Source: Candidatus Scalindua japonica
GTDB taxonomy: Bacteria; Planctomycetota; Brocadiia; Brocadiales; Scalinduaceae
Assembly: GCF_002443295.1 (NCBI RefSeq)
Contig: NZ_BAOS01000043.1
Span: forward strand, 1-64,000
DNA: 64,000 nucleotides
Direction: 5' to 3'
The notes under the pieces are model-generated. The model ran no database searches, had not been told where the DNA came from, and was given only the letters and a program-made list of their open reading frames with translations. A program made the position numbers and the translations under genes. Within the stretch, counting starts at the first letter, position 1. The number at the start of each line of letters is the position of its first letter. This document shows, piece by piece, positions 27,525 through 61,306 of the stretch.

Positions 27525-28223
27525 TTGATGAATGACCGTCCAATTAAATTAACGTATATGAATGTCAAAGTTGGAGACGTTGAGATCCTTCGGTTGTTAC
27601 TTCCTCAGAATGACATGCTGACTTGTCATTCTAATGTAGCAAAGTGGAATGAAGAATTTATCTTTGAGAATAATACCAAAAAGTACTTGAGTTTTATGGA
27701 CTATTTTACTACTCATACAACCATTAAAAAAATTCTCTCTTCAAAGAAAACAGAATTTGGATTAGAAGTTCTGAGGAGAACACCTATCCATTTTATTATT
27801 TGCTTAGACTTTGACGGAATAAAAGACTCTCCTGAAATAGATTATGGTTGGAAATTATTGTCTAAGACTCTTGAAACGATGAAAAATTATGCCGGTAAAG
27901 CGGGCGCAGAACTCTATGTTGTTTTTATTCCGTTTGAGTTTCAGAGTTCAAACATACTTTATGAAAGATTTACAAGAAAATACGGTAAGGATCCGTCAAG
28001 TATTGATTTAGAAAAACCAAACAGGCGATTAGCTCAACTATGTGAACGCTTCGATATCGCCTGTCTTGACCTGTTGCCCGCAGTGAAAAATGCTGTATCT
28101 AAGGGTAATCAACTCTATTTTATCCGTGACGGACACTTGAATGTTGATGGTCATAATTTTATTTACCGAATTTTGATACCTGAAAAGGTTTTTAGAAAAG
28201 AAAAGGTGCTGAATGCTTTTTAA
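27525..28223 (+). CDS. SGNH-hydrolase-like protein lacking its N-terminal catalytic block (probably truncated)
   Basis: A 232-residue frame. The C-terminal half resembles SGNH/AlgX-AlgJ-type acyl esterases found beside MBOAT acyltransferases: an AELYVVFIPFEF strand, DIACLDLLPAVKNA and a terminal RDGHLNVDGHNF block with the catalytic Asp-His pair. The N-terminal GDS(L) serine block is missing. The first ~45 residues are encoded largely by a dispersed palindromic repeat (27583-27662), so the original 5' end seems to have been replaced. It overlaps the following MBOAT gene by 11 bases. Probably non-functional as an esterase. Confidence 0.6.
   Translation: MMNDRPIKLTYMNVKVGDVEILRLLLPQNDMLTCHSNVAKWNEEFIFENNTKKYLSFMDYFTTHTTIKKILSSKKTEFGLEVLRRTPIHFIICLDFDGIKDSPEIDYGWKLLSKTLETMKNYAGKAGAELYVVFIPFEFQSSNILYERFTRKYGKDPSSIDLEKPNRRLAQLCERFDIACLDLLPAVKNAVSKGNQLYFIRDGHLNVDGHNFIYRILIPEKVFRKEKVLNAF
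27583..27662. repeat. Palindromic dispersed repeat forming part of a reading frame
   Basis: It contains TCAGAATGACATGC and GTCATTCTAATG as an inverted pair (AGAATGAC/GTCATTCT) and matches 36931-37037 closely: GGTTGTT.CTTCCTCAGAATGAC.TGC, then ATTCT, AGC.AAG and GAATGA. The same family as the common AGATTCTTCGCT...TCAGAATGAC bacterial palindromes. It is read through in frame. Confidence 0.75.
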
Positions 28224-29702
28224 CTCTCTTCATTTTATATTCTTTTTTCCAATAGTGGTATTGCTGTATTATTCTATACCGCAGCGTTGGAGGTGGGTGC
28301 TTCTTCTACTGGCAAGCTACTATTTTTATACCCGCTGGAAAGTTAATTACGCAATTTTGCTTGTAGCTTCCACAATAGTGGATTATATAGCGGGTCTACT
28401 CATGGTCAGGTTTCCTGAGGGTGGGATAGAAAGAAAGGGTTTATTAGCCACAAGTCTGGTGACCAATTTAGGGCTGTTATTTACGTTCAAATATTACAAT
28501 TTTTTGAATGCAAGTTTGCAGGGATTATGTGACAAGTTTGATATTATCTACAATGTACCCCAATTGGATATTCTTCTGCCTTTAGGTATATCATTTTATA
28601 CATTTCAAACCATTAACTATACCATAGACGTGTACCGTGGTCACATTGAACCGGAGAAACATCTGGGACGTTTTGCAGTTTATGTGGCATTTTTCCCGCA
28701 GCTGGTAGCTGGTCCTATTGAAAGGCCTCGCATTTAATTCCCCAATTTCTGCAAGACCATCAATTTAATTACCAGCGCCTTGTCAGTGGGTTCAGAATAA
28801 TGCTTTGGGGGTTTTTTCTGAAAGTAGTTGTGGCTGATCGTTTAGCTGTCTATGTCGACTCTGTTTACAGTGCTCCGCATCAATTTTATAGAGCACCGCT
28901 CTTGCTGGCTACTTACTTCTTTGCTTTTCAGATATATGCTGATATTGCCGGATATTCTGCGATTGCGATCAGCTCTGCAAAGATAATGGGTTTCGATCTT
29001 ATGGAAAATTTCCATTATCCTTATTTAGCTGCTTCAGTCTCTGAATTCTGGAAAAGATGGCATATTTTACTATCCACCTGGTTTCGGGATTATGTATATA
29101 AGCCTTTGGGCGGCAATCGTGTATCTAAATCTCGCTGGATATATAATATTATGGCTGTATTCCTTATCAGCGGGATGTGGCATGGCGTGAACTGGACATT
29201 TCTGGTTTGGGGAGCAATACATGGCCTCTATTTGATAATATATATGCGAACAAAAAAACTACAGGCTAAAATATTGAATATTATTGGTATAGAAAACTCT
29301 CCCGGATTAAAAAAATAGTAGCTGTATTTCTTACCTTCCACCTGGTACTTGTAGCGTGGATTTTTTTCAGGGCTAATTCTATTAGAGATGCGGGTATTAT
29401 CCTCTCAAATATGTTTAGCGGTCTCCCTTATGACATCTATAGGATTCTGACAATGGATTTGAGAGGTGTTTGTAAGATTCACTCATACTCATAAATATAA
29501 CCGGATTTGAATGTTGTCTTAGTCTGGCGCTCATATTGATTGTAATGATGCATGATACTATGCGCGGCATATTACGCTTACACCAGAAACTGGGGCAGAA
29601 CACAAGGTATTATCTCCGTATGGCCTATTACGATGGATTGATAATTGCGTTGATACTTTTGGGTGTATATGGGAAAAAACAATTTATCTATTTTCAGTTT
29701 TA
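28213..29702 (+). pseudogene. MBOAT (AlgI-like) O-acyltransferase, multiply frameshifted
   Basis: Translating the three frames together gives a ~495-residue AlgI-type membrane O-acyltransferase. The N-terminal part has SLHFIFFFPIVVLLYY and LLPLGISFYTFQTINYTID. The middle part has VSEFWKRWHILLSTWFRDYVY and the catalytic GMWHGVNWTFLVWGAIHGLY. The C-terminal part has HLVLVAWIFFRANS and ends with KKQFIYFQF. The frame breaks at ~28733 (one base lost after RPR), at an A7 run at 29309-29315 (one A short), and again near 29470. MBOAT proteins O-acetylate exopolysaccharide with an SGNH partner, which here precedes and is itself truncated. The pair looks dead. Confidence 0.8.
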
Positions 29703-30849: not shown

Positions 30850-31769
30850 TAGTCAGTAAGATATTTATAGATGGAGGAAATAAAACTCAGCAGGTAATAA
30901 AGTACAGTGGAGTACCAAACGCAACCTGGTACAATCACGTAAATAAGAAAGGAACGGATAAGAGACAGGAGAGCAGAGGACGTCCTCTGCCAGGATATTC
31001 ATTTAATCAAAAAGGAGAAAGAGTATACGATGAAGCAATACTATGTGCTTTGAAGGCTTACAGAAGTAAGATTGAGTTTGTCAATGCCGGAGGTTATCAC
31101 AAACTAAGTCATTATTTGTGGAGAGATTATGGTTACATAGTGAATCACAAGAAGGTATACCGTTTATGCAAAGAGAACAAATTATTGTTGCCCAGAAGAA
31201 AGAAGGTGTCAAAGGTAAAAGGTAGGCGTATATGCCAGAACCGTACGATAAGTAAGCCGGATGAGCTATGGGAATTGGATTTGAAATATGGATATATACA
31301 TGGTGAAGAGAGATTTTATTTCATATTAATAATAATAGATGTATTTGTACGCTATGTAGTGAATTACCACATAGGTCTGAGTTGTACAGGCAAAGACCTG
31401 GTACTGGCATTAAACATAGCTGTAGAGAAGCATAAATTAGATACAAACCAACTGATAATAAGGAGCGATAATGGAAGCCAGATGACCTCAAAGGTGTTTA
31501 TAAAGAACATGGAAAGTTATAACAATGAGGTAATACATGAATTAATACCACCTGCAACACCAAACAAGAATGCCCATGTGGAGGCATTTAATTCAATATT
31601 GGAAATTGAGTTTATGCAGGTGAGATATTTTCATAGTTATGGTCAGGCATATGATGAGACAATAGAGTTTATTGACAAATACAATACTGAGAGAATACAT
31701 GGGTTGTTGAACTGGAACACGCCAATAGAAGCCCGTAAGGCGTATTTAAACGGTGGCAACCTGGGTTAA
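30822..31769 (+). CDS. IS3-family OrfB, DDE (rve) transposase
   Basis: The frame is open from the A8 run (30816-30823) to 31769 with no good independent ATG early on, as expected if it is made by -1 frameshifting from OrfA. The helix-rich N-terminal part is followed by an rve integrase core with catalytic residues in LWELDLKYGY, IIRSDNGSQM and NAHVEAFNS (D-D-E), ending with the NTERIHGLLNWNTPIEA tail typical of IS3 OrfB. The catalytic domain itself looks intact. Confidence 0.85.
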   Translation, partial: KPPTLAERLVVSKIFIDGGNKTQQVIKYSGVPNATWYNHVNKKGTDKRQESRGRPLPGYSFNQKGERVYDEAILCALKAYRSKIEFVNAGGYHKLSHYLWRDYGYIVNHKKVYRLCKENKLLLPRRKKVSKVKGRRICQNRTISKPDELWELDLKYGYIHGEERFYFILIIIDVFVRYVVNYHIGLSCTGKDLVLALNIAVEKHKLDTNQLIIRSDNGSQMTSKVFIKNMESYNNEVIHELIPPATPNKNAHVEAFNSILEIEFMQVRYFHSYGQAYDETIEFIDKYNTERIHGLLNWNTPIEARKAYLNGGNLG

Positions 31770-31787
31770 ATGTGATGTCCTCTTTCA

Positions 31788-32228
31788 TTAAGCACGTCCA
31801 TGTGTTGGTATGACAAGGACCGGACAAGAAGAGCCGTGCAATACTCCCTCACTTACACTACCAATTATCAAGTTATGTACAGTGCCATGGCCGTGGGAAC
31901 CAACTACTATCATATCAATTTTTAATTTATTAGATTCACGCAAAATAACTTCAACCGTTGCACCTTGAACACAAAGAGATGTTGTATCAATTCCGGATGC
32001 GCGAAAATTATCTACCTCTTTTTGCAGTTTCTCTCGTTCTTCGTGTAATTCCTGTGCAATTTGATCACGAACGGTCTGTGGCCCAGGCTTATAACCAACA
32101 AAATCAGGTTCGGGTTCAGCAACATGCAGTATCCATACTTTTGCGGAAAAAGCCAAGGCCATAGTTTTTACCTTAGACAACACCTTTTGCGAAGCACTGG
32201 ATAAATCAACTGCAACTAAAATGTTCAT
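31788..32228 (-). CDS. Universal stress protein, UspA family
   Basis: A 146-residue single-domain Usp. It begins NILVAVDLSSASQKVL and carries the ATP-binding pattern VVGSHGHGTVHNLIIGSVSEGVLHGSSCPVLVI (G-x2-G-x9-G-S/T type). Such proteins bind ATP and support survival under stress or energy limitation, usually as cytoplasmic dimers. The gene ends 18 bases from the IS3 OrfB stop and is convergent with it, so the insertion has landed right at its 3' end and may have removed its terminator. Confidence 0.93.
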   Translation of the reverse strand: MNILVAVDLSSASQKVLSKVKTMALAFSAKVWILHVAEPEPDFVGYKPGPQTVRDQIAQELHEEREKLQKEVDNFRASGIDTTSLCVQGATVEVILRESNKLKIDMIVVGSHGHGTVHNLIIGSVSEGVLHGSSCPVLVIPTHGRA

Positions 32229-32277
32229 TTACCTTCTCCGGTTTGTCAAAAAAGTCTATTAATTATATTAATAGATA

Positions 32278-32375
32278 CACAACGACGCACATAGGGATTT
32301 TGCAAACGATTCATCCCTGGTCATGTTCCACTCTCGAAGCGGTGCCACAACGACGCACATAGGGATTTTGCAAAC
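32278..32375 (-). CRISPR. Minimal CRISPR-like unit: two 30-base repeats, one 38-base spacer
   Basis: Identical 30-base repeats lie at 32278-32307 and 32346-32375, separated by a unique 38-base spacer (32308-32345). Read on the minus strand the repeat begins GTTTGCAAAATCCC and ends GTCGTTGTG, which has the GTTTG-type start and size range of CRISPR repeats. No third repeat, leader or cas gene is visible. It may be a relic or orphan array; a simple duplicated intergenic repeat remains possible. Confidence 0.5.
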
Positions 32376-32426
32376 CCCACGAAATTCACAAAAAATACTT
32401 TAATGTATTTCGTGATTTTCGTGGGG
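32375..32426 (-). terminator. Long hairpin downstream of the LsrF-like gene
   Basis: CCCCACGAAATTCAC (32375-32389) pairs with GTGATTTTCGTGGGG (32412-32426) with one mismatch and a 22-base loop. It lies just after the aldolase stop and abuts the CRISPR-like repeat. There is no U-run, so termination is only a guess; it could also be a repeat element. Confidence 0.45.
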
Positions 32427-32445
32427 AATCGCTAGTTATTAGGTA

Positions 32446-33234
32446 TTATCCATTCTTTGTATCGTTGAATATGTCGTTGGCTTCCTGAGGATTTGCACCT
32501 TTATGGATAATTGCATGCAGGGCCTTAGCCATCGCTACAGGATGCTTATGCTGCCAGATGTTTCTCCCAAGGTTTAAACCGATGGCTCCCTTTGTCATTC
32601 CGTCATGGACGAACTCAAACACCGGAAGTTCAGTATCAAACTTTGGTCCGCCTGCTATAACTATTGGAACAGGACAGCCTTCAGTAACTTTTTCAAACTC
32701 TTCACACCAGTAGGTTTTAACTACCTTGGCGCCAATTTCTGCAGCGATTCGACAGCATAGTGCAAGGTATCTAGCGTCACGTTTTTCCAGCTCTTTTCCG
32801 ACAGCAGTAACTGCCATTACCGGAATACCGTACTCTTCGCACTCGTCTACGAGTTTTCCAAGATTAAGAAGTGTCTGGCGCTCGTAATCGCTTCCAATAA
32901 AGACAGACAGACCTACACCGGAGACATTGAGCCTGACAGCGTCTTTTATCGAAGTAGTAAGCCCCTCGTTTGCCAGATCTCCTCCAACCACGCTGGTACC
33001 TCCGGATACTCGAAGGATGATCGGTTTGCTGTCATCCGGGTTTATGGCTGCACGCAAAACTCCTCTTGTGACAAAAAGCGCGTCGCAGTATTCAATAATC
33101 GGTTTAATGGTCTCTCCGGGTTTCTCCAGATTATTTGTGGGTCCCAGGAAATACCCATGATCTATAGGCATGAACATACATTTGCCGTCAGATCCCATTA
33201 TCGAAGAGAGCCTGTTTTTCATTCCCCAATCCAT
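32446..33234 (-). CDS. LsrF/DhnA-type class I aldolase-thiolase
   Basis: A 262-residue TIM-barrel protein closely resembling LsrF. Matching segments are MDWGMKNRLSSIM, MPIDHGYFLGPTNNLE, FVTRGVLRAA, TMAVTGVGK-like PVMAVTAVGKEL, GAKVVKTYW with the Schiff-base Lys, and CPVPIVIAGGPK. LsrF thiolyses the AI-2 breakdown product; relatives are archaeal-type FBP aldolases and ADH synthase. No lsr genes accompany it, and it lacks ~35 N-terminal residues of enteric LsrF, so a different sugar-phosphate substrate is likely. Confidence 0.85.
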   Translation of the reverse strand: MDWGMKNRLSSIMGSDGKCMFMPIDHGYFLGPTNNLEKPGETIKPIIEYCDALFVTRGVLRAAINPDDSKPIILRVSGGTSVVGGDLANEGLTTSIKDAVRLNVSGVGLSVFIGSDYERQTLLNLGKLVDECEEYGIPVMAVTAVGKELEKRDARYLALCCRIAAEIGAKVVKTYWCEEFEKVTEGCPVPIVIAGGPKFDTELPVFEFVHDGMTKGAIGLNLGRNIWQHKHPVAMAKALHAIIHKGANPQEANDIFNDTKNG

Positions 33235-56336: not shown

Positions 56337-59227
56337 AGGTTTTTACTAAAGAAAACTTTCCTGATGCTATCGGGAATGAAATAGTTTCAGAGGTTGTCCA
56401 TATTGGGATTACATCTGTAGATGAAATCCGTATGGTACAGGTGTACCTGGTAGAGGGGGACCTGTCCAGAGGAGAGATCAGGAAAATCTGCAGTGAATTG
56501 TTGATAGACGGACTTACACAGGATTATATTTGCATTGATGGACCGTCTGATGATATACAGGCAGAAAAAGTCAAGATTGGCCGGAAATGGAGTAGTAATA
56601 ATATTCATACAATTGAGATAACCCGTAAACGAGGTGTGATGGACCCGGTGGAATCCACTGTGATCAAGGGAATCAAAGATCTGGGTTTGAGTGCAAGGTC
56701 TGTAAAAACTGCAAAGAGGTTTCTGATAACCGGTCAACTAACGACTGATCAACTTGAAACTATAGCAAATAAAGTGCTTGCTAACAAAATTATAGAAGAT
56801 GTTTTCATCGGCAAAGATAATCTGTTTTATGAAGATAAAAATAAAACAGTAGACTATGTTTTCAAAAAACAGACTCTTGCAATACTGGATGCGGATGATG
56901 AACAGCTTCTGGCGATTAGTGAGAAGGGACAGATGTATTTGACTGTTACTGAGATGAAGGCTGTCCAGAAGCATTTTGCCAAACTTGGTAGAAACCCGAC
57001 CGACGTTGAACTGGAGACAATTGCTCAGACGTGGTCTGAACATTGTATGCATAAAACGTTTAAGGGAATAATAGATTATAATGGAGAGTATATAGATGAT
57101 CTTCTTGCCAATACAATAGTAAAAGCTACTTCGGAATTGAATAAACCGTGGTGCGTTTCTGTATTTAAGGATAATGCCGGTATAATTGAATTTGATGAAA
57201 ATTATAATATCTGTTTCAAGGTTGAAACACATAACCATCCATCTGCAATTGAGCCTTATGGTGGCGCCAATACTGGAATCGGTGGCGTCATAAGGGATAC
57301 ATTGGGTACAGGACTGGGAGCCAAGCCCATTTTAAATACAGATGTTTTCTGCTTTGGACCGCTGGATATGCTTCATGGAAATATTCCGGAAGGGGTCCTT
57401 CATCCAAAAAGAGTGTTTAAAGGTGTTGTCTCGGGTGTCAGGGATTATGGTAATCGTATGGGGATCCCTACATCGAATGGAGCTATTTTTTTTGATGAAA
57501 GGTATACAGGCAATCCACTTGTTTATTGTGGTAACGCGGGGTTAATTGCAAAGGACAAGTGTGAAAAGGAGTCATATAAAGGTGACTTAATTTTGCTTGT
57601 GGGCGGCAGAACGGGAAGGGATGGTATTCACGGGGCAACCTTTTCATCGGTAGAATTGACTCATCAATCAGAGGTCGTATCCGGGGGCGCTGTCCAGATT
57701 GGTGATCCTATAATGGAGAGGAAAGTTGCGGACGCACTATTGATAGCACTGGACCGAGGGTTATACAATAATATTACCGATTGCGGTGCTGGAGGTCTCT
57801 CTTCAGCCGTGGGAGAGATGGGAGAATCGCTTGGCGCGGTTGTTGATCTTGAAAAAGTACCCCTTAAATATGAAGGACTCTCGTATTCAGAGATCTGGAT
57901 TTCCGAGGCCCAGGAAAGAATGGTGCTTTCCGTACCACCTGAAAACAGGGAAGAGATTAGAGATATCTTTGAACGAGAAGAAGTAGACGCTACATTTATT
58001 GGAGAGTTTACTGGAGATAGAAGACTGCACTTAAGATATAAGGGTGAGACTGTTGCTGATATTGAAATGGCCTTTCTGCATGATGGGCTCCCCAGGATTA
58101 CACGGAAGGCAACGTGGCATCTGCCGTCACATAAAGAGCCTGAGTTGAAGGAGAAAACGGATTATGGTGAAGATTTAAAAAGAATCCTCTCTTCATGGAA
58201 TGTCTGTAGCAAAGAGTGGGTAATCCGGCAATATGATCATGAAGTGCAGGGTGGAAGTGTTCTGAAGCCTCTGTTGGGAGTAGATAATGAGGGCCCGGGT
58301 GATGCGTGCATTGTCAGGCCGGTTTTAGACTCCAACAAAGGAATAATTGTATCAAATGGTATGAATCCTAAATATGGTGAAATAGATCCTTATCATATGG
58401 CTTCTTCGGCAATAGATGAGGCCCTGAGACAAGTTGTATCCGTGGGCGGCAGCCTGGAAAAAGTTGCCCTTCTGGACAACTTCAGTTGGGGCAACACAGA
58501 TAAACCTGAGTGTCTTGGAGGGCTTGTAAGGGCGTCAAAAGGGTGTTATGATACTGCTTTACATTATGAGGCCCCATTTATATCCGGCAAGGACAGCTTA
58601 AATAATGAGTTTAAGGCGGGAGACAAAACTATTGCTATACCACCGACACTACTGATCTCTGCCATATGTGTAATGCCTGACGTTACCAGGGCGATTTCAA
58701 TGGATGTGAAATCACCCGGTAATCTGATTTATATTGTTGGTATGACAAAAAATGAGCTTGGTGGTTCACACTATTATTTTACACACGGTTTTACAGGAAA
58801 TTCAGTCCCAAAAGTAGATACAGAGATTGCAAAGAAAACGATGGATCTACTTGCAAATGCGACAGGAAATGGCCTGGTAAGATCATGTCATGACTGTTCG
58901 GAAGGCGGGCTTGCTGTTGCTGCAGCAGAAATGAGCTTTGCTGGCGGATATGGAATGGAGCTTGATTTGTCACAAGTGCCTTTTGACACAGGGACAGTCA
59001 GGGACGATACTGTTCTTTTTTCGGAATCTAATACACGGTTCATTGTTGAAGTGCAGCCGGAAAAACAGAAAGAGTTTGAGGTGGCAATTAAAGGCGCTCC
59101 GTATGGCTGTATAGGAAAAGTTATGGATAATGATATTTTTACTATTCTTTCATTAAGCGGTGAAAAAGTGATCTCAGAAAAACTTTCTGATCTTAAAGAG
59201 GCATGGCAGGTAACGCTGAGGTTGTGA
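56321..59227 (+). CDS. purL: Phosphoribosylformylglycinamidine synthase, PurL with two N-terminal PurS-like repeats
   Basis: A 968-residue enzyme making FGAM from FGAR, ATP and the ammonia delivered by PurQ. Residues ~1-90 and ~95-180 each look like a PurS fold; the second reads TRKRGVMDPVESTVIKGIKDLG and LANKIIEDVFIG. The synthase part has TWSEHCMHKTFKG, VETHNHPSAIEPYGGANTGI, ITDCGAGGLSSAVGEMGE and the second AIRS-like half with SGKDSLNNEF and HDCSEGGLAVAAAEMSFAG. It thus resembles the large PurL without its fused glutaminase, which is supplied by purQ at 61307. Confidence 0.95.
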   Translation: METRIEVFTKENFPDAIGNEIVSEVVHIGITSVDEIRMVQVYLVEGDLSRGEIRKICSELLIDGLTQDYICIDGPSDDIQAEKVKIGRKWSSNNIHTIEITRKRGVMDPVESTVIKGIKDLGLSARSVKTAKRFLITGQLTTDQLETIANKVLANKIIEDVFIGKDNLFYEDKNKTVDYVFKKQTLAILDADDEQLLAISEKGQMYLTVTEMKAVQKHFAKLGRNPTDVELETIAQTWSEHCMHKTFKGIIDYNGEYIDDLLANTIVKATSELNKPWCVSVFKDNAGIIEFDENYNICFKVETHNHPSAIEPYGGANTGIGGVIRDTLGTGLGAKPILNTDVFCFGPLDMLHGNIPEGVLHPKRVFKGVVSGVRDYGNRMGIPTSNGAIFFDERYTGNPLVYCGNAGLIAKDKCEKESYKGDLILLVGGRTGRDGIHGATFSSVELTHQSEVVSGGAVQIGDPIMERKVADALLIALDRGLYNNITDCGAGGLSSAVGEMGESLGAVVDLEKVPLKYEGLSYSEIWISEAQERMVLSVPPENREEIRDIFEREEVDATFIGEFTGDRRLHLRYKGETVADIEMAFLHDGLPRITRKATWHLPSHKEPELKEKTDYGEDLKRILSSWNVCSKEWVIRQYDHEVQGGSVLKPLLGVDNEGPGDACIVRPVLDSNKGIIVSNGMNPKYGEIDPYHMASSAIDEALRQVVSVGGSLEKVALLDNFSWGNTDKPECLGGLVRASKGCYDTALHYEAPFISGKDSLNNEFKAGDKTIAIPPTLLISAICVMPDVTRAISMDVKSPGNLIYIVGMTKNELGGSHYYFTHGFTGNSVPKVDTEIAKKTMDLLANATGNGLVRSCHDCSEGGLAVAAAEMSFAGGYGMELDLSQVPFDTGTVRDDTVLFSESNTRFIVEVQPEKQKEFEVAIKGAPYGCIGKVMDNDIFTILSLSGEKVISEKLSDLKEAWQVTLRL

Positions 59228-59251
59228 TTTAAATGTAAAAAACGTAATCAG

Positions 59252-59299
59252 CCTCTCTTTCGAGAGGATTCCAGAATTGAACTCCTCTCGAAAGAGAGG
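59252..59299. repeat. 48-base palindrome, copy 1 (after purL)
   Basis: CCTCTCTTTCGAGAGG and CCTCTCGAAAGAGAGG are perfect 16-base inverse arms around a 16-base centre. Each arm is itself a small hairpin with a TTTC or GAAA loop. It matches 61200-61247 except in the central ~7 bases. It starts 25 bases after the purL stop. Confidence 0.85.
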
Positions 59300-59302
59300 A
59301 AA

Positions 59303-61016: not shown

Positions 61017-61306
61017 TTATAATTACTCAGTTCTTTTGTGTACGACTTATCTTATTCAATTCTCGCCCTTGTACTACTTATGCTTGGGAAGACGAGCGTG
61101 GGAAGATGAAAAAGATGTCTATTATACAGAACGAAAGGATAAATATCAGGCAACCCTTACTTTATAATTTATAAATATAAATATTAAATGCATAAACATC
61201 CTCTCTTTCGAGAGGATTCCAGTTGCGGACTCCTCTCGAAAGAGAGGAGATACTCCCGGTTTTTGCCGAGAGTCATGTCTGGACCTGAAATGGCTAAATT
61301 ATAACG
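61017..61306. other. Spacer before purQ with the second palindrome
   Basis: The region where parE would be expected (61017-61190) shows no toxin-like frame in my reading. The only clear structure is the palindrome at 61200-61247. The purQ start is 60 bases further on, with a weak ribosome site. Confidence 0.4.
61200..61247. repeat. 48-base palindrome, copy 2 (before purQ)
   Basis: The same arms as at 59252-59299 in the same order, with identical shoulders (AGAGGATTCCAG and CTCCTCTCG) and a different ~7-base centre (TTGCGGA instead of AATTGAA). With copy 1 it brackets the 1.9-kb cassette inserted between purL and purQ. Confidence 0.85.

Follow-up and report, generated by a model that had tools for sequence, protein, structure and literature searches.

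An argG-derived two-repeat unit in Candidatus Scalindua japonica: a probable off-target spacer integration by a resident type I-B CRISPR-Cas system

Introduction

A short CRISPR-like unit of Candidatus Scalindua japonica, made of two exact 30-nt repeats around a copy of part of the organism's own argG gene, very probably results from a single off-target (ectopic) spacer integration by the type I-B adaptation machinery of the same genome. Candidatus Scalindua is a marine ammonium-oxidising (anammox) bacterium, and the source genome is a draft metagenome-assembled genome (MAG) of 4.81 Mb in 47 contigs, with a contamination estimate of 2.88. Positions given without a contig refer to the window, the whole stretch of 64,000 nt that was analysed.

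Units with only two repeats readily pass for false positives of CRISPR detection, although a simple recognition test can be put to them: is the spacer an exact copy of self DNA, and does the repeat have the length of that of a resident array? Here, one genome contains the unit, a donor that can be traced, and the presumed source array, whose lengths match those of the unit, which bears on the birth of isolated arrays, and on the extent to which adaptation samples the host chromosome.

Structure and surroundings of the unit

The unit (32278-32375) consists of two exact direct repeats on the minus strand, read here as the two copies of a putative 30-bp target-site duplication: a leader-side copy (32346..32375) and a distal copy (32278..32307), with a start-to-start distance of 68 nt and 38 nt between them. 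By simple arithmetic, an exact 30-nt repeat at such spacing lies far beyond chance. Read on the minus strand, the repeat is GTTTGCAAAATCCCTATGTGCGTCGTTGTG; the GTTTG start recognized in the preliminary description is confirmed, and this orientation agrees with that of the I-B repeat. The unit occupies the gap between two minus-strand genes, both named by eye, a class I aldolase-like gene (32446..33234, ORF of 262 aa) with homologues in Scalindua MAGs, and a uspA-like gene (31788..32228, ORF of 146 aa). In a protein search, the best matches of the aldolase-like protein (97%) came from Candidatus Scalindua MAGs.

The unit had been described as lacking cas genes or a longer array. This holds for its own contig, where no match was found to cas1 or a cas3-like gene, the families searched there, and no other unit of the two-repeat type was seen within the 64-kb window; CRISPR-Cas loci are nevertheless present on other contigs of the genome. 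Two further features of the window were recorded. The ORFs at 28213-28737 and 28800-29318 resemble, by eye, two halves of a single, apparently interrupted MBOAT-type O-acyltransferase gene. A palindromic unit of 74 nt containing CCTCTCTTTCGAGAGG is present twice, at 59227-59300 and 61175-61248 (1948 bp apart), the copies being 82% alike.

Origin of the insert

The insert (32308..32345, minus strand) had been taken for a unique sequence. While the exact repeats around it stand, its uniqueness does not: a search of the genome with the unit returned one other place, on contig C17, where 39/39 nt are identical when base 32307 is included (G000:C17:31063-31101). This match lies inside a minus-strand ORF of 424 aa that reads, by eye, as argininosuccinate synthase (argG), and the copied stretch starts at codon 145. 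In the GTTTG orientation, the insert corresponds to the argG sense strand. Beyond the insert, identity with argG covers one base of the repeat at one end and none at the other, so that the unit can be parsed as 30 + 38 or as 29 + 39.

In the six other genomes of the genus whose argG matched, the same 39 bases differ from the insert at 6, 6, 6, 6, 6, and 7 positions. As the insert is exact to the argG of its own genome, these sequences suggest that the donor was most likely the argG of the own lineage, and that, measured against this divergence, the event is a recent one. Neither the core of the insert nor those of three I-B spacers had a match in viral_contigs.

Such a copy could also have been made without Cas proteins, by templated insertion during break repair or by template switching, which could account both for 38 nt copied from a distant gene and for a duplicated target. 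Nevertheless, the junctions offer 1 nt and 0 nt of microhomology, and repair leaves unexplained why both lengths fit the I-B array and why the site resembles the I-B repeat (both described below), which makes this route very unlikely. An assembly chimera could be suspected in a draft of 47 contigs with a contamination estimate of 2.88, but such an artefact would not be expected to produce an insert of spacer length with a clean duplication of 30 nt on its two sides, in a place that resembles the repeat, and this explanation is extremely improbable.

Resident CRISPR-Cas systems

The genome holds two cas1 genes, both off the contig of the unit. The first belongs to a type I-B locus on contig C3 (L027 = G000:C3:64000-83999), with NCBIfam matches to cas6, cas7, cas5, cas3, cas4, cas1 (TIGR03641, I-B), and cas2; those to cas7, cas5, and the cas3 helicase fall below the curated cut-offs, while the others pass. 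A 673-aa ORF between cas6 and cas7, without NCBIfam match, is taken as cas8b by position only. The operon also contains, between cas7 and cas5 (L027:5534-5866), a MazF-like ORF, so named by eye and likewise without NCBIfam match. Beside cas4-cas1-cas2 lies an array whose 54 repeats are identical and 30 nt long (GTTTTTATATTACCTATGAGGAATTGAAAC), with 53 spacers of 35 nt (n=17), 36 nt (n=28), 37 nt (n=7), or 38 nt (n=1), the sole 38-nt spacer being the leader-proximal one.

The presumed target duplication of the unit therefore has exactly the length of the resident I-B repeat (30 nt), and its 38-nt insert is within the 35-38 nt range of the I-B spacers, at the top of that range (1/53). The adaptation genes that the proposed event would need, cas4, cas1, and cas2 of type I-B, are present in the same genome, in open frames and with matches above the NCBIfam cut-offs.

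The second locus, on contig C28 (L028 = G000:C28:397500-417499), comprises cas1, cas2, a separate reverse transcriptase, and type III-like genes (identified by eye, except for cas1), with two short arrays on either side. A REP-type transposase-like ORF was seen, also by eye, between the reverse transcriptase and a CARF-like gene. The arrays of this locus have 37-nt repeats and periods of 73-78 nt. This second system was rejected as the source, since the 30-nt repeat and 68-nt period of the unit fit the I-B system and not this one.

The cas3 gene of the I-B locus is frameshifted in the assembly (L027:6669-9238): the HD part and the first part of the helicase are in one frame, which stops near L027:8357, and the helicase goes on in another. 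No cas3-core match exceeded the curated cut-off in the whole genome. The frameshift may be genuine or a sequencing error; with cas3 split and cas4, cas1, and cas2 open, the system may perform adaptation without interference. Relatives of the I-B Cas1 were found in one genome of the same family (94%) and in one of the same order (90%). Among 12 other genomes of the genus, several of which are incomplete MAGs, no close relative was found, and three carry a distant Cas1 (23-26% identity).

Sampling of the chromosome by the I-B system

Spacer 12 of the I-B array is an exact 36-nt match to a helicase-like gene (by eye) on contig C28 of the same genome, which indicates that the I-B machinery samples its own chromosome. 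The target (G000:C28:227803-227843) shows PLD and DEAD domains by eye, and is found with 4 mismatches in a relative from the genus (G009). As regards a possible PAM, its 5' flank is AATC, compared with AATT for the argG donor, so that only AAT is common to the two.

The other spacers yielded no further protospacer. In a search with 51 of the 53 I-B spacers against 13 genomes of the genus (own genome included), leaving out the duplicate spacer 3, and spacer 12, for which a match was known already, only the array itself matched; in the own genome, 40/64 and 36/39 of the first-look candidates were scored, so that a miss is possible. Against phages, the I-B array gave three records, apparently due to the repeat or to chance. 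In addition, 27 of the 100 distinct spacers from the array of a related genome (G026), searched against 33 genomes, returned their own array and one 83% match. A separate observation concerns Paenibacillus phage Scottie (MH460825.1, 18653-18712; L216:580-640), in which the stretch from an amidase gene to a small ORF has two I-B-like repeat ends (ACCTA.TA/GAGGAATTGAAAC) at a distance of 39 bp; this intergenic pair looks like a phage-borne repeat unit.

Uniqueness of the repeat

Within 3 mismatches, the 30-nt repeat of the unit is found at two places in the genome, both in the unit. A search of genome_contigs (where own-genome records are possibly left out) with its 25-nt core found no match, the plasmid search gave none, and the phage search returned one 18-nt match (E 0.6). 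When 58 loci were scanned on both strands, no copy within 9 mismatches appeared besides the window's own. In the same genome, a full array with this repeat was looked for and none was found, the 54 copies of the I-B repeat within 3 mismatches all being in their own array.

These results bear on each of the three origins offered in the preliminary description. A dispersed repeat, or a transposon end, was rejected, as no copies within 3 mismatches were found beyond the two in the unit. Neither the stub of a lost array nor a transplanted unit is supported, given the confinement of the repeat to the unit, the lack of matches in genome_contigs and plasmids, the single short phage match, and a spacer that comes from the own argG. 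An array served by resident cas genes, whether as a stub or as an isolated array, was also discarded, the repeat not being common to any cas-adjacent array of the genome. As regards mechanism, the CRISPR-like label of the unit is retained.

A rival explanation would make the unit the stub, or a transplanted piece, of another, lost CRISPR system that had by chance gained a self spacer from argG. Repeat and spacer sizes are array-like, and arrays can hold self spacers, as shown by spacer 12 here and by a case reported in PMC8616872. Against it stand the absence of any further repeat copy in the genome and in the 58 loci, the outside searches, and the fact that a one-sided likeness to the resident I-B repeat, described next, would have to be a coincidence; we consider this origin unlikely.

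One-sided likeness to the I-B repeat

Placed in register, the repeat of the unit and the I-B repeat have 14/30 bases in common, all in the leader-side 20 nt: positions 1-4 (GTTT), 7, 9, 11, 13-18 (CCTATG), and 20. None of the last 10 positions is common. For the leader-side 20 nt, a cut picked after the alignment had been viewed, an equally good match is reached at 13 of 127,938 other positions in the window (shuffle 7.7e-5). For the whole 30-nt repeat, 14/30 is reached by 2500 of 127,938 window positions (shuffle 0.011), so that the overall resemblance is modest. In the reverse orientation, 5/20 bases match the leader side of the I-B repeat. The likeness extends to the preceding bases, as GG stands directly before GTTT at both the unit and the I-B array. 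The distal end of the repeat is without ATTGAAAC, which usually serves as the I-B crRNA handle.

A resemblance limited to one side (14/20 leader-side bases, with the cut chosen after the fact) is what off-target integration would be expected to give. In type II-A, according to PMC6895254, off-target sites match the leader-repeat junction and not the far end, with G favoured. A preference for G at +1 is likewise stated for the E. coli and Sulfolobus Cas1 in PMC4574026.

The palindrome beside the unit

The strong hairpin said to abut the unit is borne out, both as an inverted repeat (32375-32393 / 32408-32426, within 32375..32426) with 19-nt arms that are 89% complementary, and as an RNA fold of -27.4 kcal/mol (z = -4.46) for the palindrome with the adjoining repeat. 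The leader-end or terminator role suggested for it is not. The outermost base of the palindrome (32375) is also the first base of the repeat.

In a relative (G004), a copy of the palindrome family follows the orthologous aldolase gene, with other sequence beyond. As the family thus occurs at the same place in another Scalindua genome, comparison suggests that the palindrome probably predates the insertion, and it may have helped to attract it. Members of the family (...TTTCGTGGG) were seen at several places in some genomes of the genus and family, possibly as a REP-like element.

Some published results concern such structures. Integration near palindromes on plasmids is attributed to Nunez 2015 in PMC4574026, which also states that in E. 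coli, in vivo, a palindrome alone is insufficient for integration; for Sulfolobus, stem-loops near the leader end are pointed to in PMC9456107. The leader of the own I-B array ends in CCCGC-TTAAAAG-GCGG followed by the G of the repeat, a small palindrome that ends at the same base as the palindrome of the unit. Mimicry of this leader palindrome is a weak argument, since neither of the two nearest I-B leaders (G016 and G026) retains it.

Proposed course of the integration

The I-B Cas1-Cas2, with Cas4 beside it, would have captured a prespacer of ~38 bp from the own argG. The leader-repeat junction of the array would have been bypassed, and a chance look-alike (GGG followed by GTTT, minus strand) attacked in its place, between the aldolase and uspA-like genes and beside the palindrome. 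The two ends of the prespacer would then have been joined to opposite strands, with a stagger of one repeat length (30 bp), and gap filling would have turned the 30-bp target into two identical flanking copies. We infer both the integration event itself and the role of the palindrome.

An empty site was sought in several ways. BLAST of 232 bp against 58 other genomes and the own one gave none. Beside 11 uspA-like loci of 30 fetched (two of the 11 being own-genome paralogues), the gap sequence is not kept, the stretch viewed being the far side of the gene for minus-strand loci. Downstream of 13 of 80 aldolase loci, no empty site was seen either, the best 30-mers having 13-16 mismatches on the one strand considered, and the gap sequence was not recovered in 12 other genomes of the genus. 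Since no relative provided an empty site, we infer the duplication from one genome.

Once formed, the unit is probably inert: the half of the repeat that would supply the crRNA handle is unmatched, which makes a usable crRNA improbable, and the cas3 of the assembly carries a frameshift. No promoter-like site was found in 31700-32700, compared with a mean of 2.1 in shuffles.

In the opposite reading, the unit would be functional, and would act on argG as a minimal CRISPR-derived regulator, through natural CRISPR interference. The exact self match, the frameshift in cas3 (with which a bound effector might repress instead of destroy), and a position downstream of the same-strand aldolase gene all agree with it. 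Transcribed from the aldolase side, the unit would provide an RNA that is loaded in an I-B effector with broken Cas3 and tunes argG, a scenario to which we give very little credence; if true, arginine synthesis would have gained a natural CRISPR-interference switch from a chance integration. The reading as a whole is highly unlikely, given the distal 10 bases without likeness to the I-B repeat and hence without handle, the lack of a promoter-like site, and the absence of the unit from every relative examined. Furthermore, RNA in the GTTTG orientation would be argG sense, and so would not pair with argG mRNA. Known CRISPR-derived regulatory RNAs of the scaRNA and CreA/CreR type have partial complementarity and a diverged second repeat; this type was rejected for the unit, which has an exact 39-nt match and two identical repeats instead.

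Comparison with known systems

Off-target integration that creates CRISPR loci is already known, and the argG unit of the Scalindua genome, explained as a product of it, is a new natural example. In the titles and abstract openings of literature on Scalindua CRISPR and on ectopic or off-target integration, no report of this unit was found.

Nivala, Shipman, and Church reportedly described, in 2018, spontaneous CRISPR loci formed in E. coli by non-canonical spacer integration. These loci and the unit are alike in that an insert of spacer size lies outside any array, between the copies of a duplication as long as a repeat; they differ in that the former arose in E. coli with overexpressed type I-E Cas1-Cas2, whereas the latter lies in a natural type I-B genome and has a self donor. 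For natural genomes, Shmakov et al. are said to have reported, in 2020, isolated arrays that owe their formation to off-target integration. There too, a new unit arises where the sequence is similar to the resident repeat, while the present case has a single spacer, taken from argG, and a likeness to the leader half of the repeat only.

Integration into non-array regions upon Cas1-Cas2 overexpression is also mentioned in PMC11788318. In Pelobacter carbinolicus, a self-targeting spacer matches the housekeeping gene hisS, with a reported effect on expression (PMC8616872). The unit shares with that spacer a match to a housekeeping gene of its own genome, but it stands outside any array, with no sign of being expressed. 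Finally, the off-target half-sites of the S. thermophilus Cas1-Cas2 are, like the site of the unit, similar to the leader-repeat junction and start with G. According to PMC6895254, these sites were obtained in vitro, with a type II-A system and mostly as half-site products, whereas the unit described here belongs to a natural I-B genome.
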